Position numbers and translations under genes: made by a program
In this document: piece after piece, positions 49,830 through 64,000 of the stretch
Position numbering within the stretch: the stretch's first letter is position 1
Layout of the letters: each line of letters begins with the position of its first letter
Notes under the pieces: generated by a model
What the model was told of the DNA's origin: nothing
Database searches by the model: none
Seen by the model: only the letters and a program-made list of their open reading frames with translations
Assembly: GCF_023276435.1 (NCBI RefSeq)
Contig: NZ_JALLPO010000009.1
Span: forward strand, 62,001 to 126,000
Direction of reading: 5' to 3'
DNA from: Sphaerisporangium perillae
GTDB taxonomy: Bacteria > Actinomycetota > Actinomycetes > Streptosporangiales > Streptosporangiaceae
Length of the DNA stretch: 64,000 nt

Positions 49830-50864
49830 TCATTTCACCGGCGTCTCGAGGGACGATATCCGATGGGCGGCTCCACGCGAAGACGTCGCCGGCCCGCCGT
49901 AGCCCGGCCGCCGCGGCCGACGGCCTTCCCGGCCACGCCGCATATGCGGGTAGATCAGGGTCGTCTCAAACTACTCGTGCCCGAGCGCTTCCTGGATCTC
50001 GCGCGGCTTCGCCCCAGCCTCCTCGGCGAGCGTCGCCCAGGTGTGCCGCAGCCCGTGCGGCGTCACCTTCGACTCGATGCCCGCCTGCCGAGCGATCCGC
50101 GCGACCAGCTCCCACGCCCTGCCCCGCGGCAACGCCTGGCCACCGGACGTCGTGAACAGCGGCCCGCGAAGGTCCCGCAGCTCCACTCCGGCCCGCGCCG
50201 CCCTGTCCGCCAGGTACTGGTCCAGGGCGTACGTCGTCTCCACCGGCAACCGGCGGACCAGCTTCTTGTCGCCCTTCAACCTGACGCGCAACGTCCGATA
50301 CCCGCGGCTGTAGCCCAGGTCGTCGATCTGCGCGTTAACGGCCTCGGTCACCCGGATCCCCAGCTGCAGCAGCCGGATCAGCGCCGCCGTGCGCAGCCGC
50401 GCCGGCCCGTGGTCGGCGTCGGCCGCCTCGATGAGCGCGTGAGCTTCGGCTCGGGTGAGCGCCACCGTCTCCGGCTGCTTACGCGCGACCTTCGGCCGGT
50501 CCGCCTCCGCGAACGGGTTCCGCGTCGCGGCGTCGTTCTTGATGAGGTACCGGTACCAGGCCGACGCCACCGACATCCGCCGCGCGACCGTCCGCTTCGT
50601 CGGCGGCTTCTCGTCGTCCTCGGCGGCCTGTTCGACCATCCACCGGGCGTACAGCTCGGCATGCCGGACCTTCATCTCCAGCGGATCAAGGCGCGTCCGC
50701 GCGCAGTAGGTGAACCACAGCCGGATGTCGCGCCGGTAGGCGTCGCGGGTGTGCGGCGACTTGCGGGACGCCAGCCACATCGCGGTGATCTCCATGACGA
50801 TGGGCGGCAGGTCGAGCAGGAGCGCGACGTCGCCTCCCGGGCGGACCGCGACCTCGACGGTCAC
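49830..50864 (-). pseudogene. Tyrosine recombinase/integrase with in-frame amber stop before the catalytic Tyr
   Basis: Codons 1-297 encode an N-terminal SAM-like domain and catalytic domain with R171 (LLQLGIRVTEAV), H270-x-x-R273 (PHGLRHTWATLA) and H296 (EALGHE). Codon 298 is TAG (49973-49971). Beyond it the same frame continues FETTLIYPHMRRGREG, where the nucleophile Y305 should be, at 49952-49950. A single TCG-to-TAG change would explain it. Without readthrough the product lacks its nucleophile and is inactive. The small gene 50902-51141 lies just upstream on the same strand. No tRNA or attachment repeat was seen nearby. Confidence 0.88.
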
Positions 50865-51305: not shown

Positions 51306-52385
51306 TCACGCGGAAGGGCGGGCCGTGGAGCCGCGGATGACCAGGGAGACCGGCAGCAGGAGCGAATGGGACTGGCGCTCGGGGCCCTCGATGCAGTCGA
51401 GCAGCATGCGGGCGGCCTCGGCTCCGATGTCGCCGTGCGGCACGCCGACGGTCGTCAAGGGAGGGCGCAGCTTGTCCAGGAAGGGCATGTCGTTGAAGCC
51501 GACGACGCTGATGTCCTCCGGGCAGGAGATGCCTCGCTCCGCGAAGACGTCGTAGCAGCCGAGCGCGATGAGGTCGTTGCCGGCGACGACCGCGGTGAAC
51601 GGGGTCCCGCGGTCGAGCAACCCGCGCATGGCGTCGGCGCCGTCGGCCTCGTTCCAGTACGCGCACTCGGCGATGAGGGCCGGGTCGTCCTCCAGTTCGT
51701 GGTCGCGGATGGCGTGCCGGAACGCCCGTGCCCGCACCACTCCGGAGGAGGTGTTCCGCGGTCCGGCGAGATGGGCGATCCGCGTGTGGCCGAGGCCGGC
51801 GAGATGGCGCACGGCCAGCGCGATCCCGCCGGCGTCGTCGGCGGTGACGAAGGGGATCTGGAGGTCCTCGACGCGGCGGTTGACCAGGACCATCTTGACG
51901 CCCTGCTCGTGCAGGCTCCCGAGCAGAGGATGGTCCAGCCGTGCCGTGGCGATGATGAGGCCTTCGACATGACGCGAGCGCAGCGAGTCGATGCGGGTGC
52001 GCTCGCGCTCGCGGTCGTTGTCGGTGTTGACGATCCAGGCGCTGTAGCCGGCCACCTCCAGAACGTTCTCGATGCCGCGGACGATCGGGGGGAACAGCGG
52101 GTTCGTCAGGTCGGGGACGACCACCCCGACCGTGCTCGACTTCGAGGTCTTCAGGCTCCGGGCGATCGGGTTCGGCTGGTACCCCAGGGTCTTGGCGGCC
52201 TTCATCACGCGCCGCGCCGTGTCGGCGCTGACGAGCCGCCGCGTCTTGGGGTTGAGCGCCCGCGACGCCGTGGCGGCGTGCACCCCGGCGGCTTCGGCGA
52301 CGTCACGCAGCGTGGGCGGCTGCTGCGCGGAGGTACGCCTGACGGTTCCCTCCTGCGAGGGAACGGGAGGCTGGTCGGGTCTCAA
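51306..52385 (-). CDS. LacI-family transcriptional regulator
   Basis: 359 residues. The LacI HTH (TLRDVAEAAGVHAATASRALN) follows a 24-residue disordered leader; the hinge KTLGYQPNPIARSLKTSKS and the periplasmic-binding-like effector domain follow. The TTG start at 52385 overlaps the MFS stop (TTGA) and has AAGGAG upstream. It is third in the SBP-like - MFS - LacI run. Four LacI-type operators upstream of this and three other units suggest it controls the whole catabolic block. Confidence 0.93.
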   Translation of the reverse strand: MRPDQPPVPSQEGTVRRTSAQQPPTLRDVAEAAGVHAATASRALNPKTRRLVSADTARRVMKAAKTLGYQPNPIARSLKTSKSSTVGVVVPDLTNPLFPPIVRGIENVLEVAGYSAWIVNTDNDRERERTRIDSLRSRHVEGLIIATARLDHPLLGSLHEQGVKMVLVNRRVEDLQIPFVTADDAGGIALAVRHLAGLGHTRIAHLAGPRNTSSGVVRARAFRHAIRDHELEDDPALIAECAYWNEADGADAMRGLLDRGTPFTAVVAGNDLIALGCYDVFAERGISCPEDISVVGFNDMPFLDKLRPPLTTVGVPHGDIGAEAARMLLDCIEGPERQSHSLLLPVSLVIRGSTARPSA

Positions 52386-53560
52386 CGGCCTGGCTCTCCT
52401 TCAGGTCGGATCCAGCGCGTGCGTCCCAGGGTGGCGAACAGGCCGAGCGGAATCGCCAGCACGGTCGCCCAGCCGAAGATCTCAGCGTACCTGTGGCTCT
52501 CCGCGAGCCCTCCGACGAGAACGGCGGCGACGGCGCTGCCGAGGAACAGCGCCCCGGCGAAGGCGGAGACCACGGTGGCCCGCGCCGACGGCAGCACCTC
52601 GGTGGCCCACGTCTGCAGCGACGAGTGCATCGAGGCCCAGGCCAGTCCGAGGAGCCCGGCGGCGGCCAGCGCCACGCCGGGCGCGCGCGACAGGGCCGTA
52701 AGCCCGCACGCCACCGCGGCCGCGACGGCGCCGAGCGCGATGAGCCTCGACGCGTGCATGCGCTGCGACAGCGCCCCGACGACCCTGGCGAATCCCAGGA
52801 CCGCGACGCCGTACACGGCGGTGACCGCTCCGGCGACGGACGTGCTGGCGCCGGAGGCCTCGACGGCCGCGGGGAGCAGGGTCAGCACACCGAGCAGCAC
52901 CGCTCCCTCGGTGAAGGCCAGGGCCAGCACCAGCCTGGTCGGCCCGGAGCGGACGACGTCCAGCAGCGGGGCGAGGACGCTCGTGTGCGCTCGCGCGCGC
53001 GGCGGCCGGGGGAGGCGGCCGAGCGCGACGGCGAGCACGACCGCGGCGAGGCCGGTCAGGAGGAACGCGGCCCGCCAGCTGGCGAACTGGGCCAGCACCC
53101 CCGCCCCGATCGAGGCCAGCGCGGTGCCGAGCGCGACGCCGACCATGAGAGCGGTCACCTCCCGCTGCCGCAGGTGGGCCGGCACCGTGTCGCCGACGTA
53201 GATGAGGGCCGCCGGGATGGCGGCGCCGAAACACGCCCCGGCCAGCCCGCGGGCGATGCCGAGGCCGAGGGTCGTCTGGGTGAACGCCGCGGCTATCGTG
53301 CTCACCGCCGAGAGCGACAGCGCCATCCGCATGGTCGTCACCAGCCCGACCCGGTCGGAGATCATCCCCCATACCGGCTGCATGAGCCCGTACGCGAGGA
53401 AGTACGCCCCGGCCGCGTTGACCATCGCGGAGAGCGGCGCCCCGAGTTCGTGCGCTATCGCGATCAGCATCGGCGGCATCGCGAACCGGTCCAGGGTGCT
53501 GACGAACGTGATCAGCTGCAACAGCCGGGGTGCCCGTCCCGGCGCGGCGGCCGCGGTCAT
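52382..53560 (-). CDS. MFS transporter
   Basis: 392 residues, 12 membrane helices. Typical loop motif LMQPVWGMISDRVGLVTTMRMAL between helices 2 and 3 and GIARGLAGACFGAAIPAALIYVGD. ATGA overlap with the upstream binding-protein-like gene. It is probably an importer or exporter for the compound metabolised by the block; the substrate is unknown. Confidence 0.9.
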   Translation of the reverse strand: MTAAAAPGRAPRLLQLITFVSTLDRFAMPPMLIAIAHELGAPLSAMVNAAGAYFLAYGLMQPVWGMISDRVGLVTTMRMALSLSAVSTIAAAFTQTTLGLGIARGLAGACFGAAIPAALIYVGDTVPAHLRQREVTALMVGVALGTALASIGAGVLAQFASWRAAFLLTGLAAVVLAVALGRLPRPPRARAHTSVLAPLLDVVRSGPTRLVLALAFTEGAVLLGVLTLLPAAVEASGASTSVAGAVTAVYGVAVLGFARVVGALSQRMHASRLIALGAVAAAVACGLTALSRAPGVALAAAGLLGLAWASMHSSLQTWATEVLPSARATVVSAFAGALFLGSAVAAVLVGGLAESHRYAEIFGWATVLAIPLGLFATLGRTRWIRPEGEPGR

Positions 53561-54480
53561 CGCCCGGCCGCCCCGGGCGGGTCGAGCAGGCCGCGAGACG
53601 GTTCGAGCGCGGTCGCGAGCACGTCGGCGCCGCCGGCCGTCGCCGGCACGTACCTGCGCCGGAGGCCGACGACCGTCTCCATCGCCTGGAGGTCGACGAC
53701 CCCGTCCGCGACGAGGCCTTCCTCGGGATCCTTCAGCCGCTGGAGGTACCGGCGGGCCAGGGTCTCGGGGAGGCCGAGCGCCGCGGCCGCCTCCTCGACG
53801 GCGACGCGGTCGGCGTTCCCGGCCGTGATCTCGCGGGCGGCGTCGCGAAGGGCGCCGGCGAGTGCCTCGACGAGGGCCCTCCGCCGGTCGCCGACCGTGC
53901 TCAGCACCGTTCCGAGGTAGGGGCGGCACACGTCGACGAGCCTGACGAGGCGTGCCGACCCGGCGTCCTCCGCCCGCAGTTCGTTGCCCGCGTTCAGCAT
54001 CGTCGCGTCGCAGTCCCCGGCCATCAGCGCCTCGAGGCGGCGAGGCGTGGAGCCGAGGGGGACGACGCGGTAGTCGGCGCGGTCCAGTCCCAGGGACGCG
54101 AGCAGTGCGTAGAGCGCGAGGGCGAAGCCAGAGCCGGGCACGTCGACGCCGATGACCGCGCCCTTCAGCCGGTCCGCGGTGGTGATCCCGGGCCGGGCGT
54201 ACAGGCCGAGCCCGAGGCCGCGGTCGATCGCCGCGACGATGCGCACGTCCGCCGTCTCCCCCAGCGGGTTGCCGGGGTCGAAACGGTAGGCGACGACGTT
54301 GTCCGGGCTGGTGAGCGCCGCGTCGAGGTCGCCGTCGAGGAGTGCGCGGAACTGCGCGGGCGAGGAGGGGACGGGCTGCTCCAGCACGTCCAGACCCCGG
54401 TCGCCGAGCAGGCCGAGACGCCGGCTGACGCGCAGCAGCACCGAAGGGCTGAAGGCGCCGACCACGAGTTGCCCTCTCAC
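53557..54480 (-). CDS. Substrate-binding-protein-like (NMT1/TauA-type) protein without signal peptide
   Basis: 307 residues from the GTG at 54480 (AAGGAG upstream). The fold starts QLVVGAFSPSVLLRVSRRLGLL, with ALLDGDLDAALTSPDNVV, VIGVDVPGSGFALALYALL and YRVVPLGSTPRRLEALMAGDCDATMLNAG, as in periplasmic proteins that bind sulfonates or pyrimidine precursors. There is no export signal, so it may bind its ligand in the cytoplasm or act as an enzyme of the NMT1 type. First gene of the SBP-like - MFS - LacI run. Confidence 0.8.
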   Translation of the reverse strand: MRGQLVVGAFSPSVLLRVSRRLGLLGDRGLDVLEQPVPSSPAQFRALLDGDLDAALTSPDNVVAYRFDPGNPLGETADVRIVAAIDRGLGLGLYARPGITTADRLKGAVIGVDVPGSGFALALYALLASLGLDRADYRVVPLGSTPRRLEALMAGDCDATMLNAGNELRAEDAGSARLVRLVDVCRPYLGTVLSTVGDRRRALVEALAGALRDAAREITAGNADRVAVEEAAAALGLPETLARRYLQRLKDPEEGLVADGVVDLQAMETVVGLRRRYVPATAGGADVLATALEPSRGLLDPPGAAGR

Positions 54481-54533
54481 CTGTCGTGACTCTCCTTCTT
54501 CGATGGCTTGTATGGATCCGCCACATGATAGCC

Positions 54534-54545
54534 GCACTCGTTTGC
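54534..54545 (-). promoter_or_regulatory. LacI-type operator, copy A
   Basis: GCACTCGTTTGC, a near-palindrome with the central CG of LacI-family sites. It lies 54 bp upstream of the start of the SBP-like - MFS - LacI run. The same 12-mer occurs again as copy C. Confidence 0.7.
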
Positions 54546-54612
54546 ACCCCCGCGCCGACGGCGGTCTCCCCTCTTGACAGTCACACGATCAAACCTCATG
54601 CTGCTGGCCATC

Positions 54613-54624
54613 GCAATCGTTTGC
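54613..54624 (+). promoter_or_regulatory. LacI-type operator, copy B, with promoter
   Basis: GCAATCGTTTGC lies 38 bp before the ATG of the ABC substrate-binding protein. A TTGACA (54574-54579) followed after 17 bp by CATGCT (54597-54602) is a likely promoter, so the operator sits just downstream of the -10 box. Copy D is the exact reverse complement of this 12-mer. Confidence 0.75.
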
Positions 54625-54661
54625 GGTTAAATCGATGCGGCAAAGCTCACAAGGAGGGCTC

Positions 54662-55954
54662 ATGACCGCTTCATCCCCCGGGCAATCCGAGATACTCGCC
54701 GAGTCGGCACCCAGGGTTACGCGCCGGCGTGGTCGAGGCTGGAGGACCGCGGCGGTGGCCGTCGTGGCGGTCTGCGCCGCGACCGCCCTGTCCGCCTGTG
54801 GCCAGCGGCCCTCCGAGATCGCCAAGTCCGACACCGGCAAGCCGATCGTCGTCGGCATCTCCCTGCCCTTGACCGGAGACTTCGCGCAGCCGGGCACCGA
54901 GGCCAAGCGGGGCTACGAGGTGTGGCGCGACATGGTCAACGCCAAGGGCGGCATCCTGGGCCGTCAGGTGCAGCTCAAGATCACCGATGACGCGAGCAAC
55001 CAGGACACCGTGGTCGCCGACTACACCAAGCTGATCACGCAGGACAAGGTCGACCTGCTGCTCGGCACGTTCTCCTCGCTGCTGAACTACCCCGCCTCGG
55101 CCGTGGCCGAGAAGAACGGCATGGTCTTCGTCGAGCCCGCCGGCGGCGCGCCCAAGATGTTCGAGCGCGGCTTCAAGTACCTCTTCTTCGCGCAGCCGGC
55201 GACCGCCCCGCACCAGGCCGACGTCTTCATCGACTGGATCAAGTCGCTGCCCGAGGCCGACCGCCCGAAGACGGCGGCCTACCCGAGCCAGGACGACCCG
55301 TTCGCCCACCCCGTGGTGGAGTCGATGCAGAAACAGCTGGAGGCCCTGGGCGTCCAGACCGTCTACAGCTCCCTCTACCCCGCCGACACGACGAACTTCC
55401 AGTCCGTCGCGAGCACGCTGGCCAGCAAGAAACCCGACCTGATCGCGCAGGGCGCCGTGTTCGAGGACGGCGTCGGGCTGGTCCGCGCGCTGAAGCAGCT
55501 CGACTACTCCCCCAAGATCCTCTTCCAGACCTCCGCGCCCAGCAACGCCGGCCAGTACAGCGACGGCATCGGCCCGGCGAACACCGAGGGCGTCTTCTAC
55601 ACCGTCAGCTGGAACGAGAAGGCGTCGACCCCGCTCAACGCCGAGTTCGTCGCCGGATACAAGAAGGCCTACAGCGCCGACCCCGCCGAGGACGCGGCCG
55701 ACGCGTTCGCCGCCGCGCAGGTGCTGCAGGCCGCGGCCGAGAAGGTCGGCTCCATCGACCAGGACAAGATCCGGGACTGGCTGCACGCCAACACGGTGGA
55801 CACGATCCTCGGTCCGCTGAGCTGGGAGGCGACCGGTGAGCCGAAGGGCCGGTTCCTGCTCGCCCAGTGGCAGTCCGGCAAGGTCGAGGTGGTCGGGCCC
55901 GCCGACGTGGCGACGACCAAGAACGTCGTCAACCCCAAGCCCGGGTGGAAATAA
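54662..55954 (+). CDS. Branched-chain amino-acid-type ABC transporter substrate-binding lipoprotein
   Basis: 430 residues from the ATG at 54662 (GGAGG six bases upstream). Type II signal peptide with lipobox LSAC, C46. The receptor fold begins IVVGISLPLTGDFAQPGTEAKRGYEVWRDMVNAKGGILGRQVQLKITDDASN, as in LivK/urea/amide-binding proteins. First gene of the importer operon SBP - LivH - LivMG - LivF. The ligand is unknown; the enzymes downstream suggest an organic amine, amide or aromatic-derived acid. Confidence 0.93.
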   Translation: MTASSPGQSEILAESAPRVTRRRGRGWRTAAVAVVAVCAATALSACGQRPSEIAKSDTGKPIVVGISLPLTGDFAQPGTEAKRGYEVWRDMVNAKGGILGRQVQLKITDDASNQDTVVADYTKLITQDKVDLLLGTFSSLLNYPASAVAEKNGMVFVEPAGGAPKMFERGFKYLFFAQPATAPHQADVFIDWIKSLPEADRPKTAAYPSQDDPFAHPVVESMQKQLEALGVQTVYSSLYPADTTNFQSVASTLASKKPDLIAQGAVFEDGVGLVRALKQLDYSPKILFQTSAPSNAGQYSDGIGPANTEGVFYTVSWNEKASTPLNAEFVAGYKKAYSADPAEDAADAFAAAQVLQAAAEKVGSIDQDKIRDWLHANTVDTILGPLSWEATGEPKGRFLLAQWQSGKVEVVGPADVATTKNVVNPKPGWK

Positions 55955-56051
55955 CCGTCAACGACCGCCGATGCCGCCGGGCCCGTCCGGCGGCATCGTG
56001 GGCAGGAGCCCGCGCCCGCACCAGGATCGGGGCCGACGAGGAGTTCTTGAG

Positions 56052-56926
56052 ATGACACATCTAGTACAGGCGATCACGTTGGGCCTGCTGATCGGCGGGG
56101 TCTACGCGCTGATGGCCTCCGGCCTCACGCTGATCTTCGGCGTCATGCGGATCATCAACATCGCGCAGGGCGCCTTCCTGGTCCTGGTGGCCATGCTCAC
56201 CTGGTGGCTGTGGCACGAGACCGGGATCGACCCCATCCTCGCGTCGGTGGTCACCACGCCGCTGATGTTCGGTTTCGGGTGGGTGGTCTACCGCCTGATG
56301 ATCTCGCGGATCCGCGGCTCGTCCGCGTCGATGTCGGTCCTGCTGACGTTCGGCTTCGCGCTGGTCATCGAGGGCGTCCTGAACGTCGTCGCGGGCAACA
56401 AGTTCAGGTCGGCGACCCCTTCGTACTTCGAGGAGTCCTTCCGGGTGGGGGAGATCTCGCTGCCCAAGGCGCAGGTGTTCGGCTTCCTCGCCGCGATGGC
56501 CGTGCTCGGCGCCCTGTACTTCGTGCTGACCCGGACCTGGACCGGCCGGGCGATCCGCGCCGCCACGCAGAACCCGTCGGGCGCCGCCCTCGTGGGCGTC
56601 GGCGCCACCGGCACGGCCGCCCTCGCCTTCGCCATCGGCAGCGCCACCACCGGCGTCGGCGGGTCCATCCTGTCGGTGCTCTACCCGTTCTTCCCCGCCT
56701 CCCACTACGACTGGATCTCGCGGCTGCTCGGCATCGTGGTGCTCGGCGGGATGGGCAGCCTGCCCGGCGCCCTCGCGGGCGCGGCCATCCTCGGCCTGGC
56801 CGAGACGCTGACCGCGACCTACGGATCCCTGGGCTGGTCGACGCTGGTCTTCTACGTCGTGATCATGGCCGTGCTGCTCATCCGACCGCAGGGCCTGTTC
56901 GGCGCGAAGCTGCGGGAGGACGCGGT

Positions 56927-56930
<4 letters not shown>
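56052..56930 (+). CDS. livH: Branched-chain-type ABC permease LivH
   Basis: 292 residues, about eight helices. It begins LVQAITLGLLIGGVYALMASGLTLIFGVMRIINIAQGAF and has the EAA-like loop RAIRAATQNPSGAALVGV. GAGGAG precedes the ATG. It overlaps the fused LivM-LivG gene by ATGA. Confidence 0.94.
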
Positions 56931-58795
<1,865 letters not shown>

Positions 58796-58796
58796 C

Positions 58797-59534
58797 GTGC
58801 TGTCCCTGAACGGGGTCTTCGCGGGCTACGGCGGCGGGAGCGTGCTCCAGGGGGTCGACCTCGAGTGCGGCAAGCAGTCGATCACCTGCATCGTCGGCCC
58901 CAACGGCGCCGGCAAGTCGACCGTGCTCCGCGTCATCAGCGGCCTGCTCCGGCCGAGCAAGGGCGAGGTGTCGATGGACGGCGAGCCGATCGGCCACCAC
59001 GCCCCCGACGAGATCCTGCGCAAGGGGATCACCCAGGTGCCGCAGTCGCACGCCCTGTTCCCGGCGATGTCGGTGCACGAGAACGTCCTGATGGGCGGCT
59101 ACCTGATCCGCAAGGACCGCAAGCTGCTGCGGGAACGGCTGGACAGGGTCAAGGATCGCGTCCCCATCGTCGCGGCCCGGGCGCAGGAGCACGCGGGGAA
59201 CCTCAGCGGCGGCCAGCGGCGGATGGTGGAGATCGCCCGGTGCCTCATGCTGGATCCCAAGGTGATCCTGCTCGACGAGCCGTCACTGGGGCTGGACCCG
59301 CGCAGCCTCGCCGGAGTCGCCGATCTGATCCACGAGCTCCACCAGGCCGGCACCACGGTGCTGCTGGTGGAGCAGAACGTCCGCCTCGGCCTCGGCCTCG
59401 CCACCCACGGCGTGGTGATGGAAGGCGGCAAGGTGCGGCTCACCGGCACCGCCGCCGAGATCAGGGACCATCCGGAGATCTCGTCGCTGTACCTCGGCGG
59501 CGGGGCGGGCCCGAGGGTCGCGAGCGGTCCCTGA
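58797..59534 (+). CDS. livF: Branched-chain-type ABC ATPase LivF
   Basis: 245 residues from the GTG at 58797, one base after the LivMG stop. Walker A GPNGAGKST at 34-42, signature NLSGGQRRMVEIARCL, Walker B VILLDEPSLGLDP, and the H-loop in the LLVEQNV switch region. It pairs with the ATPase half of the LivMG fusion. Confidence 0.95.
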   Translation: MLSLNGVFAGYGGGSVLQGVDLECGKQSITCIVGPNGAGKSTVLRVISGLLRPSKGEVSMDGEPIGHHAPDEILRKGITQVPQSHALFPAMSVHENVLMGGYLIRKDRKLLRERLDRVKDRVPIVAARAQEHAGNLSGGQRRMVEIARCLMLDPKVILLDEPSLGLDPRSLAGVADLIHELHQAGTTVLLVEQNVRLGLGLATHGVVMEGGKVRLTGTAAEIRDHPEISSLYLGGGAGPRVASGP

Positions 59535-59552
59535 GCCGTTCCCCTGGGCGCC

Positions 59553-59591
59553 TTGACAGTCGTTTCCGATGAAGGATATGCACTCGTTTGC
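59553..59591 (+). promoter_or_regulatory. Promoter with LacI-type operator, copy C
   Basis: TTGACA (59553-59558), 16-bp spacer and GATATG (59575-59580) run into the operator GCACTCGTTTGC (59580-59591), identical to copy A. Repressor binding would occlude the -10 box. It serves the hydrolase gene 30 bp downstream. Confidence 0.78.
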
Positions 59592-59620
59592 AGAACCGGT
59601 TGTGAGAGCAGGGATCGACC

Positions 59621-60679
59621 ATGGACGAACGCGTGAGCTCCGCCATCGCACACTGGGGGCCGCGTTTCACCACGAACGGCGTGACGGTCTCCGACTTCGA
59701 GCGGGTCACCCGGGGGATCGACCGCTGGGCGGACTGGTGCGCCTCCTGGTCCGCGGTGGCGGCCGAGCACGAGGCGCTGGGACGCGACGCCCTGTCCGGC
59801 GGACGGTTCCTCTCGGCCGGCGGGCATCTTTCCCGCGCGGCGGTCTACTACCACTTCGCGAAGTTCGTCTTCGTTGAGGACCTGGACCAGATGCGGGAGG
59901 CGCACGCGCGTGCGGTGGTGTGCCTCACCGACGCCCTGCCGCACCTGTCGCCACCCGGCCGGCGGATCGAGATCGGCTTCGAGGGCGCCACGCTGGCCGG
60001 CGTGCTGCGGCTTCCGGCCGGACCCGGACCGCATCCGGCGGTCCTGATGCTGGCCGGCCTGGACTCGACGAAGGAGGAGTTGCGGTCCACCGAGGAGACC
60101 TTCCTCGAACGCGGGCTCGCCACCTTCAGCGTGGACGGCCCGGGACAGGGCGAGGCGGAGTACGACCTGCCCATCCGGGGGGAATGGTCGCTGCCGGGAG
60201 AGGCGATGCTCGACGCGCTCGGCGCCGAGCCGGACATCGACGAGGCCAGGATCGCCGTCTGGGGGGTCAGCCTGGGCGGGTACTACGCGCCCCGGGTAGC
60301 GGCCGCGGCCGGGGACCGGGTGAAGGCCTGCGTCGCCCTGGCGGGGCCGTACGACTTCGGGGACTGCTGGAGCGGGCTCCCCGAGCTCACACGGCAGACG
60401 TTCCGGGTCAGGTCGGGCGCCGGTTCACCGCAGGAGGCCCACCGCATCGCCTCGACCCTGAGCATGGAGGGATGCGCCGGCGCGATCAGCGCACCGCTCC
60501 TGATCGTCTTCGGGCGCAAGGACCGGCTCATCCCGTGGCGGCACGCGGAGCGGCTCGCGGCCACGGCCGGCGGCGAGGTCGAGACCCTGATGCTCGAGGA
60601 GGGCAACCACGGCTGCGCCAACGTCGCGCCGTGGCACCGCCCCTACACCGCCGACTGGGTCGCGGAACGGCTCCGATGA
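59621..60679 (+). CDS. Alpha/beta hydrolase, 2,6-dihydroxypseudooxynicotine-hydrolase-like
   Basis: 352 residues: an N-terminal helical cap (about 1-110) and an alpha/beta hydrolase core. Nucleophile S217 in GVSLGGYYAP, acid D301 in FGRKDRLIPW and H330 in EGNHGCAN. SVDGPGQGEAEYD is characteristic of FrsA/DHPON hydrolases, which cleave a C-C bond in pyridine-ring catabolism. Its true substrate is not known. It has its own promoter and operator and precedes two catabolic genes. Confidence 0.82.
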   Translation: MDERVSSAIAHWGPRFTTNGVTVSDFERVTRGIDRWADWCASWSAVAAEHEALGRDALSGGRFLSAGGHLSRAAVYYHFAKFVFVEDLDQMREAHARAVVCLTDALPHLSPPGRRIEIGFEGATLAGVLRLPAGPGPHPAVLMLAGLDSTKEELRSTEETFLERGLATFSVDGPGQGEAEYDLPIRGEWSLPGEAMLDALGAEPDIDEARIAVWGVSLGGYYAPRVAAAAGDRVKACVALAGPYDFGDCWSGLPELTRQTFRVRSGAGSPQEAHRIASTLSMEGCAGAISAPLLIVFGRKDRLIPWRHAERLAATAGGEVETLMLEEGNHGCANVAPWHRPYTADWVAERLR

Positions 60680-60718
60680 CTCCGGCGGGCCGGTGCCACG
60701 GCCGGGACCGGCGTCGTA

Positions 60719-60764
60719 TTGACACAGGACAGATCACCTCCTACTTTTTGCAGCAAACGATTGC
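60719..60764 (+). promoter_or_regulatory. Promoter with LacI-type operator, copy D
   Basis: TTGACA (60719-60724), exactly 17 bp, TACTTT (60742-60747), then the operator GCAAACGATTGC (60753-60764), the exact reverse complement of copy B. It drives the dehydrogenase - M24 - aldehyde dehydrogenase run. Confidence 0.8.
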
Positions 60765-60778
60765 AGAGGCGGAGCCAG

Positions 60779-61747
60779 ATGACTGAATCGACTACCGGCG
60801 CTTCCGATCCACGCGTCGGCTGGATCGGAACCGGCCGCATGGGCGTCGCGATGGCGGGGCGGCTCGCCAAGGCCGGCGTGGACCTCACCGCCTGGAACCG
60901 CACCATCTCCAAGGCGGAGCCTCTCCAGGAGCACGGCGCGTCGGTGTGCCGTTCGATCGCCGACCTGCGCGACAAGGACGTCGTGTTCACGATGGTCTCC
61001 ACCTCGGCCGACCTCGAGCACGTGCTGCTCGGCGAAGGCGGGCTCCTCGCCGACGGCGGACGCCAGCCCGGCATCGTCGTCGACTGCTCCACCGTCTCCA
61101 CCGAGTCATCGGCCGCCATGCGGCAGGCGTGCGAGGACAGAGGCGTCGGCTTCCTCGCCGCCCCGGTCAGCGGGAACGGCAAGGTCGCCAGAGCCGGCGG
61201 CCTGAGCCTGGTCGTCTCCGGACGGCGGGAGATCTACGACCGGGTCGCGCACCTGCTCGGGCACATCGGCAAGTCGGCCACCTACGTCGGGGAGGGCGAG
61301 ACCGCCCGGCTGGTGAAGATCGCGCACAACCTGATGCTCGGCGTGGTGACCCAGTCCCTCGCCGAGATCACCGTGCTCGTGGAGAAGGGCGGCGTCTCGC
61401 GGCACGCCTTCCTCGAGTTCCTCAACGACAGCGTCATGGGCTCGACGTTCACCCGGTACAAGTCCCCCGCCTTCGTCAACCTCGACTACACCCCGACGTT
61501 CACGCCCGTCCTGCTGCGCAAGGACTTCGACCTCGGGCTCGCCGCCGCCCGCCGGCTCGACGTCCCCATGCCGCTGGCGGCGATCACCGCGCAGCTCGTC
61601 CAGGCCGCCGTCGGCAGCGGCCGGGTCGACGAGGACTTCGCCATCCTGCTCGACCTGCAGGCGGCCGTCTCCGGCCTCGACCTCAAACCCGAGAACGTCG
61701 CGGTCGACGACGGCCTCGGCACCGCGCGCGGGGACGAGCGGTCATGA
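60779..61747 (+). CDS. NAD(P)-dependent beta-hydroxyacid dehydrogenase (3-hydroxyisobutyrate dehydrogenase-like)
   Basis: 322 residues. Rossmann motif GWIGTGRMGVAMA at 14-26, substrate segment DCSTVSTESS and LAAPVSGNGKVARAGGL, and catalytic K180 in LVKIAHNLML. The ATG at 60779 has GGCGGAG upstream. It overlaps the M24 gene by ATGA. Likely oxidises a short hydroxyacid, or reduces a semialdehyde, in the same pathway as the neighbouring enzymes. Confidence 0.9.
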   Translation: MTESTTGASDPRVGWIGTGRMGVAMAGRLAKAGVDLTAWNRTISKAEPLQEHGASVCRSIADLRDKDVVFTMVSTSADLEHVLLGEGGLLADGGRQPGIVVDCSTVSTESSAAMRQACEDRGVGFLAAPVSGNGKVARAGGLSLVVSGRREIYDRVAHLLGHIGKSATYVGEGETARLVKIAHNLMLGVVTQSLAEITVLVEKGGVSRHAFLEFLNDSVMGSTFTRYKSPAFVNLDYTPTFTPVLLRKDFDLGLAAARRLDVPMPLAAITAQLVQAAVGSGRVDEDFAILLDLQAAVSGLDLKPENVAVDDGLGTARGDERS

Positions 61748-62988
61748 CGTCCGCGGCTCCGCTGCCCGCGCCCGGGCACATGGCGGTCGACTACGAGCAG
61801 CGGGTCGACTTCGGCCGGCTCCGGGACCACCGGCTGAGCCGGGCACGCGCCTCCCTGGCCGCCAGCGAGTGCGGCGCCTTCCTGCTCTTCGACTTCTACA
61901 ACATCCGGTACGTCACCCAGACCTGGATCGGCGGGGCCCTCGGCGACAAGATGACGAGGTACGCCCTGCTCCCCCGGGGCGGCGAACCGATGCTGTGGGA
62001 CTTCGGGTCGGCGGCCCGGCACCACCGGCTGTACAGCCCGTGGCTCGATCCGGCCAACTGCCACGCGGGCATGCTCGGCATGCGCGGCGCGATCGCCCCG
62101 ACGGCCGGCCTGATGGTGGAGGCGGTCCGCCAGATCAAGGGACTCCTGCAGGACGCCGGCCTGGCCGACGCCCCGGTGGGGGTGGACATCGTCGAGCCGC
62201 CGTTCCTCTTCGAGATGCAGCGGCAGGGCCTGAAGGTCGTCGACGCCCAGCAGCTGATGCTCGACGCGCGGCAGATCAAGTCCCGGGACGAGATCATGCT
62301 GCTCACCCAGGCCGCCGCGATGGTGGACGGCGTCTACCAGGACGTCGTCGAGGTGCTCAAGCCCGGCATCCGGGAGAACGAGATCGTGGCGCTGGTCAAC
62401 AAGCGGCTCTACGAGATGGGCTCCGACCAGGTCGAGGCGGTCAACGCGGTGAGCGGCGAGCGATGCAACCCCCACCCGCACAACTTCTCCGACCGCCTGA
62501 TCCGGCCGGGCGACCAGGCCTTCTTCGACATCATCCACTCCTACAACGGCTACCGGACCTGCTACTACCGGACGTTCAGCGTGGGCAGCGCGACGGCGAG
62601 CCAGCGGGACGCCTACACCAAGGCCCGGGAGTGGATGGACGCGTCGATCAGCATGATCAAGCCCGGAGTGGGCACGGACCAGGTGGCCGCCGTGTGGCCC
62701 GCGGCGACCGAGTTCGGATTCGAGAACGAGATGGCGGCCTTCGGCCTCCAGTTCGGCCACGGCCTCGGGCTGGGCCTGCACGAACGGCCGATCATCTCGC
62801 GGCTCAACAGCATGCGGGAGCCGATCGAGCTCCAGGCCGGCATGGTGTTCGCGCTCGAGACGTACTGCCCCGCCAGCGACGGCTTCTCGGCGGCGCGGAT
62901 CGAGGAGGAGGTCGTCGTCACCCCGGACGGCGCCCGCGTCCTCACGCTGTTCCCCGCCCAGGACCTGGTCATCGCCAACCCGTACTGA
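61744..62988 (+). CDS. M24-family (pita-bread) protein lacking one metal-ligand Asp
   Basis: 414 residues with creatinase-type N-domain and the pita-bread catalytic domain. Metal-type residues D262, H339 (FGHGLGLGLHE), E372 (FALETY) and E387 or E388 (RIEEEV) are present, but the second Asp of the D-x10-D motif is Cys (C273 in GYRTCYYRTF). That makes a normal two-metal aminopeptidase unlikely and points to a creatinase-like C-N hydrolase or a lyase. It is coupled to the genes on both sides in the run. Confidence 0.88.
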   Translation: MTSAAPLPAPGHMAVDYEQRVDFGRLRDHRLSRARASLAASECGAFLLFDFYNIRYVTQTWIGGALGDKMTRYALLPRGGEPMLWDFGSAARHHRLYSPWLDPANCHAGMLGMRGAIAPTAGLMVEAVRQIKGLLQDAGLADAPVGVDIVEPPFLFEMQRQGLKVVDAQQLMLDARQIKSRDEIMLLTQAAAMVDGVYQDVVEVLKPGIRENEIVALVNKRLYEMGSDQVEAVNAVSGERCNPHPHNFSDRLIRPGDQAFFDIIHSYNGYRTCYYRTFSVGSATASQRDAYTKAREWMDASISMIKPGVGTDQVAAVWPAATEFGFENEMAAFGLQFGHGLGLGLHERPIISRLNSMREPIELQAGMVFALETYCPASDGFSAARIEEEVVVTPDGARVLTLFPAQDLVIANPY

Positions 62989-63019
62989 GAGCCCCCGCTA
63001 CCCGAAAGAAGGCGTTCCG

Positions 63020-64000
63020 ATGGGAGACAAGGCATTTCTCGGCGACCTGCTCACCGACCTCTACATCGGGGGCAGGGCGGTCCCGGCACAGGACGGCGGC
63101 CGCTTCGACGTGCTCGACCCCGCGACCGGGGAGGTCGTCGCCTCGGTGTCCGACGGCACCGTGCAGGACGCGATCGCCGCCGTCGACGCGGCGGAGAAGG
63201 CGTCGGCGTCGTGGGCGGCCACGGCTCCGCGCGAGCGCGCCGAGATCCTGCGGACGGCGTTCGAGCTCATGACCGAGCAGAGCGAGGACCTCGCCATGCT
63301 GATCTCCCTGGAGAACGGCAAGGCGCTGCCGGACGCGCGGGGCGAGGTGGCCTACGCCGCGGAGTTCTTCCGCTGGTACTCCGAGGAGGCCGTCCGGAGC
63401 GTCGGGGCGCTCGCCACGGCGCCCTCCGGCGCGAACCGGATCGTCGTCCTGCACCAGCCCGTCGGCATCTGCGTGCTCGTCACGCCGTGGAACTTCCCGG
63501 CCGCGATGGCGACCCGCAAGATCGGCCCGGCCCTGGCCGCCGGCTGCACGGTGATCCTCAAACCCGCGAGCGACACGCCGCTCACGGCGCTGGCGATGGC
63601 CCGGATCCTGGAGGCGGCGGGAGTGCCACCGGGGGTGGTCAACGTGCTGCCCGCGCGCCGGTCCGGCCCGGTCGTGTCGGCGATGCTGCACGACCCCCGC
63701 GTCCGCAAGCTCTCCTTCACCGGGTCCACCGAGGTCGGCCGCGTGCTGCTCCGCGAGGCGGCGGACCAGGTCATCAACACCTCGATGGAACTCGGCGGCA
63801 ACGCACCGTTCCTGGTGTTCGCCGACGCCGACCTCGACGCGGCCATCGAAGGTGCGATGATCGCGAAGATGCGCAACGCCGGGGAGGCCTGCACGGCCGC
63901 CAACCGGTTCTACGTCGAGTCCTCGATCGCCGGCGAGTTCGGCAGGCGGCTGGCCCAGCGGATGTCGACGCTGACCGTCGGCCCCGGAACCGAGGAGGGC
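63020..64000 (+). CDS. NAD(P)-dependent succinate-semialdehyde-type dehydrogenase (3' end beyond window)
   Basis: Aldehyde dehydrogenase, 327 codons visible and still open at the right edge. VTPWNFP with N158, K181 in ILKPAS, the general base E257 in MELGGNAPF and nucleophile C291 in GEACTAANRF are all present. The sequence pattern is closest to GabD-type enzymes. It probably forms succinate or a related acid as the last step of the pathway. Confidence 0.9.
   Translation, partial: MGDKAFLGDLLTDLYIGGRAVPAQDGGRFDVLDPATGEVVASVSDGTVQDAIAAVDAAEKASASWAATAPRERAEILRTAFELMTEQSEDLAMLISLENGKALPDARGEVAYAAEFFRWYSEEAVRSVGALATAPSGANRIVVLHQPVGICVLVTPWNFPAAMATRKIGPALAAGCTVILKPASDTPLTALAMARILEAAGVPPGVVNVLPARRSGPVVSAMLHDPRVRKLSFTGSTEVGRVLLREAADQVINTSMELGGNAPFLVFADADLDAAIEGAMIAKMRNAGEACTAANRFYVESSIAGEFGRRLAQRMSTLTVGPGTEEG

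Follow-up and report, generated by a model that had tools for sequence, protein, structure and literature searches.

Local catabolic regulons governed by LacI-family repressors are among the closest described counterparts of the system reported here. In the excerpted text of a 2014 survey of that family, even palindromes with a central CG are the norm, and carbohydrate pathways account for 176 of the 182 LacI groups to which a pathway was assigned (PMC4052901). The subject of this work is a gene block at the right-hand end of a 64,000-nucleotide stretch of Sphaerisporangium perillae DNA (contig NZ_JALLPO010000009.1; the whole stretch is called the window), in which a LacI operon, an importer operon and a set of unusual catabolic genes are preceded by four sites of one palindromic form. 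The block shares with the regulons in the survey excerpts an even central-CG palindrome, sites upstream of operons, probable autoregulation and a neighbouring importer, but those regulons are mostly devoted to carbohydrates (PMC4052901), whereas no sugar-specific enzyme is among the families found in the block and its proteobacterial relatives are paired with ring-cleavage-type genes.

Parts of the enzyme set recall described pathways. Paenarthrobacter nicotine catabolism includes a C-C hydrolase of the same family, with Ser, Asp and His in alignment, and, like the block, a succinate-semialdehyde dehydrogenase (SSADH)-type enzyme; however, the block hydrolase is just 33.6% identical to the copies on nicotine plasmids, and the regulator and other enzymes of nicotine catabolism are unlike those of the block. 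In ectoine degradation an M24-fold hydrolase (DoeA) accompanies an SSADH-type (DoeC-type) dehydrogenase, as in the block, but the block M24 protein scores 62.6 of the 613 bits needed for DoeA, which was rejected as its identity, and the block family scans found no deacetylase or aminotransferase family. The dimethylsulfoniopropionate (DMSP) lyase DddP also has the M24 fold and is the best NCBIfam match of the block protein, at 95.7 of 600 bits, too low for assignment; according to excerpts of its description, DddP conserves the M24 metal ligands (PMC4108388), whereas in the block protein one ligand Asp, as aligned with prolidases, is Cys. The Variovorax ifc isoflavone cluster contains, in the portion of its description at hand, an alpha/beta hydrolase 25% identical to 2,6-dihydroxypseudooxynicotine (DHPON) hydrolase within a catabolic cluster, and a word search of that portion for LacI and peptidase returned zero matches (PMC11069340).

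A first-pass annotation of the window, made from its letters alone, had been aware of no described pathway with exactly this set, and none with this gene set stood among the papers listed from the open PMC literature; nor did those listings yield a LacI subfamily tied to ring-cleavage-type genes together with this enzyme set. We conclude that the block is probably a local LacI-type repressor regulon for the uptake and breakdown of one class of compound.

Operator sites and the LacI protein

The four 12-bp sites reported in the first-pass annotation are exact at all four positions and lie in front of the units named there. These sites, with the promoter-like boxes near them, are:

54534..54545, plus strand: operator 1, GCACTCGTTTGC, exact, preceding the operon of solute-binding-protein (SBP)-like, MFS and LacI genes
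54574..54579, plus strand: TTGACA, -35-like box of the importer operon
54613..54624, plus strand: operator 2, GCAATCGTTTGC, exact, preceding LivJ, first gene of the LivJHMGF operon
59553..59558, plus strand: TTGACA, -35-like box of the hydrolase gene
59580..59591, plus strand: operator 3, GCACTCGTTTGC, exact, preceding the hydrolase gene
60719..60724, plus strand: TTGACA, -35-like box of the dehydrogenase run
60753..60764, minus strand: operator 4, GCAATCGTTTGC on that strand, exact, preceding the run of dehydrogenase, M24 and aldehyde dehydrogenase (ALDH) genes

The sites are palindromes of the form GCA(A/C)WCGW(T/G)TGC, even and with a central CG as is typical of operators of LacI-family transcription factors. 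The strict pattern GCAMTCGTTTGC has six matches in the 9.30-Mb genome, four of them inside 6.2 kb of the block, and its reversed control has none. The remaining two form an inverted pair on contig C75 (L008 9862 and 9919), with starts 57 bases apart, upstream of a CrtI-like flavin adenine dinucleotide (FAD) oxidoreductase gene by about 68 and 125 bases. The looser pattern GCAnnCGnTTGC is enriched within the window (6 strand-hits against a mean of 0.71, with none of 100 shuffles reaching 6), but over the genome it lies at background level (75 strand-hits versus 114 for its reversed control) and was rejected as a genome-wide marker. Allowing two mismatches gives an ordinary count for the window (10, a value that 16 of 100 shuffles attained, their mean being 6.8). 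The signal resides in the strict palindrome, not in the loose pattern, and the genome-wide check suggested in the first-pass annotation, which called for the loose pattern, would have failed. The sites and their placement in this genome are established; their occupation by LacI is a prediction.

The sites at 54613, 59580 and 60753 follow the start of a TTGACA by 39, 27 and 34 bases, respectively. Three sites therefore have such a box, where the first-pass annotation had counted two with clear promoters. Given these spacings, the operators would lie on or just past the -10/+1 region.

The LacI protein carries both PF00356, the helix-turn-helix (HTH) domain, and PF13377 above gathering score, which places it in the LacI family, and 48 HTH matches tagged as orthologous retain V5, A6, T15, S17, L20, N21 and Leu54 (numbering of the 60-residue HTH query). 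The genome has 27 LacI matches including this one, the best of the others being 38% identical. The best NCBIfam matches of the protein are RbsR, CytR and UriR, all below cut-off. These matches, the predominance of carbohydrate control in the survey excerpts (PMC4052901) and the sugar ABC genes that adjoin two Rhodobacterales M24 loci would fit an ordinary LacI case, with a sugar or nucleoside-like compound as inducer and its modified acid as the substrate of the unusual enzymes. However, the block family scans returned no sugar kinase, isomerase or glycosidase, and the importer falls into the amino-acid (HAAT) class, so we regard this case as quite unlikely.

Conservation of the sites with LacI

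An M24 relative at E 1e-60 is present in 42 of 149 genomes, S. perillae included. Twenty relative loci were fetched, and a further set of 80 named loci represents the best 80 of 565 confirmed relatives and shares genomes with those 20. In four of the loci (L039-L042) almost the entire block is conserved, and three of these (L040, L041 and L042) carry an FAD-oxidoreductase orthologue (80-81%) inside the block beside an operator, the L041 site having one mismatch. The S. perillae oxidoreductase would therefore be a fifth regulated unit, as its gene follows two sites recognised by motif on another contig and relatives keep the gene inside the block.

The site occurs at zero or one mismatch somewhere in 17 of the 20 relative loci, exactly in 13, and at this stringency is absent from L052 (3.9 kb), L054 and L058. 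In the 80 named loci, module genes have a site at zero or one mismatch close by in 47 of the 49 loci with LacI versus 10 of the 31 without it, LacI being counted as present at 44% identity or more; the reversed pattern gives 4/49 and 5/31. The Fisher p-value for this co-occurrence is 7.8e-10, which serves only as a guide since the loci are related by descent. Among the 10 site-bearing loci without LacI, two (L061 and L063, on the contigs of L041 and L042) have LacI just past the locus end, and two (L132 and L138) have a 40% LacI that falls below the threshold. Conversely, nine loci of metagenome-assembled genomes (MAGs) named Acidimicrobiaceae, Acidobacteria or Actinomycetes (L109, L122-L125, L127, L129, L133 and L136) retain the hydrolase, importer, dehydrogenase and M24 genes but have no LacI, and no site lies nearby. 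The conservation of the sites with LacI is thus established, and it joins the genome-wide specificity of the strict motif in favouring the single LacI regulon, uniting importer and enzymes, that the first-pass annotation had proposed. A LacI catabolic regulon is well supported by this genomic pattern.

Exact matches to 119 permuted control palindromes averaged 3.0, one scoring 65, versus 80 for the real motif, some of the permuted palindromes overlapping that motif. The bases just outside the 12-mer are symmetric too, with T in 93 and A in 96 of 149 site-orientations in the named loci, some sites being counted in both orientations and the central CG being imposed by the search pattern. TTGAC lies 20-42 nt upstream in 25 of 43 site-orientations at the dehydrogenase, 13 of 20 at the hydrolase and 9 of 19 at LivJ in these loci, over a background of 1.5%.

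Several observations weigh against the single-regulon interpretation. The thresholds for co-occurrence were set after the locus table had been viewed, as was the 20-42 nt range for TTGAC after the spacings had been seen, and TTGAC at that spacing precedes the SBP-like gene in 0 of 36 site-orientations (51/149 overall). The -10 hexamers at the TTGACA-preceded sites are weak, and a consensus promoter scan of the block found no promoter. Two of the 49 LacI loci (L076 and L087) lack a site, and six of the 10 site-bearing loci without LacI are left unexplained. At one mismatch one permuted palindrome scored 341 versus 177 for the real motif (mean 64.7). Places matching GCAMTCGWTTGC fall inside the fetched block in G000 (4/6), G007 (4/5), G059 (3/3), G032 (4/8), G086 (3/6), G079 (1/1), G057 (1/4) and G014 (0/3), the two outside the block in G000 being those at the oxidoreductase. 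In G059, the genome of L039, the nearest oxidoreductase relative, at 55% identity, lacks a strict site in its vicinity. The E1- and E2-like genes described below likewise have no strict site in the genome-wide strict search. Sites produced by chance, or serving another regulator, would account for the background level of the loose pattern and for the sites outside the block in several relatives; set against this are the specificity of the strict pattern, the co-occurrence with LacI and the position at promoters, and we judge such an origin highly improbable.

Gene families of the block

The genes of the block, and the oxidoreductase gene on the other contig, are as follows:

51306..52385, minus strand: LacI-family repressor, last gene of the SBP-like/MFS/LacI operon (Pfam LacI and Peripla_BP_3)
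52382..53560, minus strand: MFS transporter (MFS_1, E 1.2e-45 for 52382-53548; start placed by eye)
53557..54480, minus strand: SBP-fold protein (Phosphonate-bd, E 1.3e-07; GTG start chosen from a GGAGAG box)
54662..55954, plus strand: LivJ-type solute-binding protein (Peripla_BP_6, E 5.2e-58; ATG after AGGAGGG; the listed open reading frame (ORF) opens at 54635)
56052..56930, plus strand: LivH-type permease (BPD_transp_2; start presumed, listed ORF opens at 55836)
56927..58795, plus strand: LivM-LivG fusion of permease and ATPase, 622 residues (BPD_transp_2 and ABC_tran)
58800..59534, plus strand: LivF-type ATPase (ABC_tran; start approximate, listed ORF opens at 58647)
59621..60679, plus strand: alpha/beta hydrolase of the DHPON hydrolase/FrsA group (PDB 2jbw, E 1.5e-44)
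60779..61747, plus strand: beta-hydroxyacid-dehydrogenase-type oxidoreductase (NAD_binding_2 and NAD_binding_11; start presumed, listed ORF opens at 60719)
61744..62988, plus strand: M24-fold protein with Cys273 at the second metal-ligand Asp (Pfam; ligand positions by prolidase alignment)
63020..64000, plus strand: SSADH-like aldehyde dehydrogenase (Aldedh; truncated at the window end, with the full gene at L007 5021-6475)
L008 8229-9930, on another contig: CrtO/CrtI-like FAD oxidoreductase, with two of the six operators in front

These family assignments are established. The importer has the parts of an ATP-binding cassette (ABC) importer of the HAAT class, namely a Peripla_BP_6 solute-binding protein, two BPD_transp_2 permeases and two ATPases, with LivM and LivG fused; LivG-labelled frames of similar length to the fusion also occur in L105, L111, L117 and L070. 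The SBP-fold protein, encoded in the LacI operon, shows no signal peptide by eye, and its conserved block begins at or near the N-terminus in most of 15 aligned homologues, these being 15 of 29 and mostly those with short frames. A relative at 40% identity or more is present in 37 of the 80 loci. Its profile has a single weak PDB match (3qsl, E 6.3e-06), which does not tell an enzyme from a binding protein; it may be a cytosolic enzyme or a ligand-binding protein.

The hydrolase bears out the first-pass label of a C-C hydrolase like DHPON hydrolase. Its closest solved relative is DHPON hydrolase (2jbw), followed by AntI and the yellowish-green 1 pigment enzymes, which we take to be C-C-cleaving, and its Ser, Asp and His align with those of 2jbw that presumably form the catalytic triad. 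The dehydrogenase belongs to the tartronate-semialdehyde/3-hydroxyisobutyrate group and reaches no NCBIfam cut-off; 3-hydroxyisobutyrate dehydrogenase itself was rejected (TIGR01692, 141.6 of 291.6 bits), and the best model is TIGR01505 (171.3 of 340.75).

The first-pass annotation had called the next gene product a creatinase-fold protein, which is correct at the level of the M24 fold, but prolidases align best among solved structures (from E 5.4e-23) and solved creatine amidinohydrolase reaches only E 2.1e-07, so creatinase was rejected. A plain M24 dinuclear metallopeptidase was rejected as well: in place of D, D, H, E, E the protein has D262, C273, H339, E372 and E387 at what we take to be the ligand positions. 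C273 is invariant: all 16 aligned proteins have it, as do all 83 tblastn matches found at E 1e-60 across the 80 named loci. In some relatives the M24 gene has further neighbours, among them a nitrilase-like protein (L070), amidohydrolases recognised by eye (L114 and L123) and molybdo-hydroxylase-like proteins; in L142 an amidase with RidA adjoins a 55% M24 relative.

The ALDH is SSADH-like rather than SSADH proper, the full-length protein scoring 581 of 646 bits for TIGR01780, so that the succinate-semialdehyde-type label of the first-pass annotation does not hold at the cut-off. SSADH-like genes at 57% identity or more occur in 38 of the 80 loci. In S. perillae, genes for E1- and E2-like components of a 2-oxoacid dehydrogenase (E2 recognised by eye) are found some 11-15 kb beyond the ALDH gene. 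When the 80 named loci were clustered together with five plasmid loci, with ORFs called by a simple program, which recovered the M24 gene in 79 of these 85, an E1-type 2-oxoacid-dehydrogenase protein was present in 57, an SSADH-like protein in 46 and an E2-like protein in 26 plus 7. M24, SSADH-type, E1 and E2 genes occur together in plasmid records from Streptomyces and two Rhodobacterales. As E1-type proteins are commoner near the block than SSADH-like ones, a C4-acid ending would be one possible tail of the pathway, not its most conserved one. Downstream of E1/E2-like genes in L144 (8481-12003) are ferredoxin (by eye), reductase and enoyl-CoA-hydratase-like genes, which in our view resemble the box (benzoyl-CoA) pathway.

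For the FAD oxidoreductase, identity as a carotenoid enzyme was rejected (CrtO, 223 of 1000 bits; crtI family, 96 of 238). A class II fumarase-like gene lies near its operators (L008 10141-11430), matching from fumC_II position 37 and apparently N-terminally short.

Substrate and proposed route

LacI relatives at about 42-49% identity are found on plasmids of Rhizobium, Shinella, Ensifer, Skermanella, Cupriavidus and others. Proteobacteria account for 20 of the 21 LacI-bearing plasmid records; nine plasmid records were opened, six through LacI, two (L145 and L146) through the hydrolase and one, from Streptomyces, through M24. The LacI of Rhizobium sp. T136 (47%, same operator) has the block LacI as its best match, at 316 versus 187 bits. 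Exact sites occur in all eight opened proteobacterial loci, with LacI adjoining in six, while the reversed pattern matches there three times at one mismatch and never exactly; the L147 sites fall between a dioxygenase gene and a tripartite ATP-independent periplasmic (TRAP) importer. Two of the eight loci, L151 among them, carry no annotation. In each of the other six, the annotation of a nearby gene is either catechol 1,2-dioxygenase or dioxygenase together with a catechol-type term, and a zinc-type dehydrogenase and a cupin are nearby; a protein of the 3-keto-5-aminohexanoate cleavage family is near in four. The L148 dioxygenase, the sole one scanned, contains both catechol-dioxygenase Pfam domains. 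A DHPON-like hydrolase at 34-37% identity is present in three of the eight loci (L145, L146 and L152), and these eight stretches hold no M24 relative at E 1e-25.

Because the block encodes a hydrolase of a C-C-cleaving group and the proteobacterial LacI and operator relatives accompany intradiol-type dioxygenases, the likeliest substrate, as judged from these gene associations, is a ring or diketone-type compound. It could be an oxygen-only hydroxyaryl ketone or a related plant phenolic, which the hydrolase would cut by a retro-Claisen reaction and whose ring-derived acids the remaining enzymes would process. AntI and the yellowish-green 1 enzymes among the solved relatives of the hydrolase, the catechol-type annotations beside the shared operator (one confirmed by Pfam) and the 3-keto-5-aminohexanoate-cleavage-family proteins are consistent with such a substrate, as is the DHPON-like hydrolase described in the excerpted account of the isoflavone cluster (PMC11069340). 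Nevertheless, scans of the actinobacterial block found no ring-cleavage dioxygenase family, and the low identity of the block hydrolase to its proteobacterial counterparts, present in fewer than half of the loci, argues in the other direction; a phenolic substrate of this kind is possible, if somewhat on the unlikely side.

A second candidate is a nitrogen heterocycle or methylamino compound, cleaved by the hydrolase as in nicotine catabolism, opened at a C-N bond by the M24 protein in the manner of creatinase or ectoine hydrolase and oxidised by SSADH to succinate. DHPON hydrolase as the closest solved relative, and the nitrilase-like, amidase with RidA, amidohydrolase and molybdo-hydroxylase-like neighbours of M24 in relatives, point this way, and a nitrogenous substrate is possible. 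The M24 protein, however, lies below the DoeA and DddP cut-offs, bears little similarity to solved creatinase and is one metal ligand short, the SSADH-like gene is present in fewer than half of the named loci and is outnumbered by E1-like genes, and the block scans found no aminotransferase or deaminase family. Since a DHPON-like hydrolase occurs in the isoflavone cluster too, judging from the part of that paper at hand (PMC11069340), the hydrolase family alone is no pointer to nitrogen. We consider this route rather unlikely. The breakdown of a nitrogen-containing compound to a C4 acid suggested in the first-pass annotation is thus partly supported, with both the nitrogen of the substrate and the C4 acid product as presumptions.

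For the LacI regulon as we favour it, we infer binding, repression and an order of steps as follows. A predicted LacI dimer would occupy the palindromes around the -10/+1 regions of the importer, hydrolase and dehydrogenase/M24/ALDH promoters and would also sit near its own operon (probable autoregulation), blocking transcription until an inducer, either the substrate or an early product, frees it. The HAAT importer would take up the compound, and the FAD oxidoreductase, C-C hydrolase, dehydrogenase, M24-fold enzyme and SSADH-like enzyme would convert it to acids; the route may end with oxidative cleavage to an acyl-CoA by a 2-oxoacid-dehydrogenase-like complex, whose genes lie nearby in many relatives.

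More broadly, we tentatively put forward a LacI subfamily that spans Actinomycetota and Pseudomonadota, recognises the operator GCAAWCGWTTGC and may control the breakdown of ring compounds instead of sugars. The actinobacterial branch of this subfamily might serve a pathway absent from the literature found, in which the M24-fold enzyme with Cys for Asp would perform a new step between the C-C hydrolase and the 2-oxoacid-dehydrogenase-like complex. The regulon provides a handle on an orphan catabolic pathway of many actinomycetes and, without LacI, of MAGs named Acidimicrobiaceae and Acidobacteria, and its operator predicts scattered members such as the FAD oxidoreductase. A ring-compound substrate, if confirmed, would broaden the known sensing range of LacI proteins, and an M24 enzyme working with Cys273 would represent new chemistry on a much-studied fold.

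Two minor features adjoin the block or its relatives. A recombinase of the phage-integrase family is encoded immediately to the left of the block (window 49971-50864). An LVIVD-repeat protein is encoded at L049 1106-2302, and look-alikes recognised by eye lie near the M24 core in L044, L070 (2674-3918) and L089.

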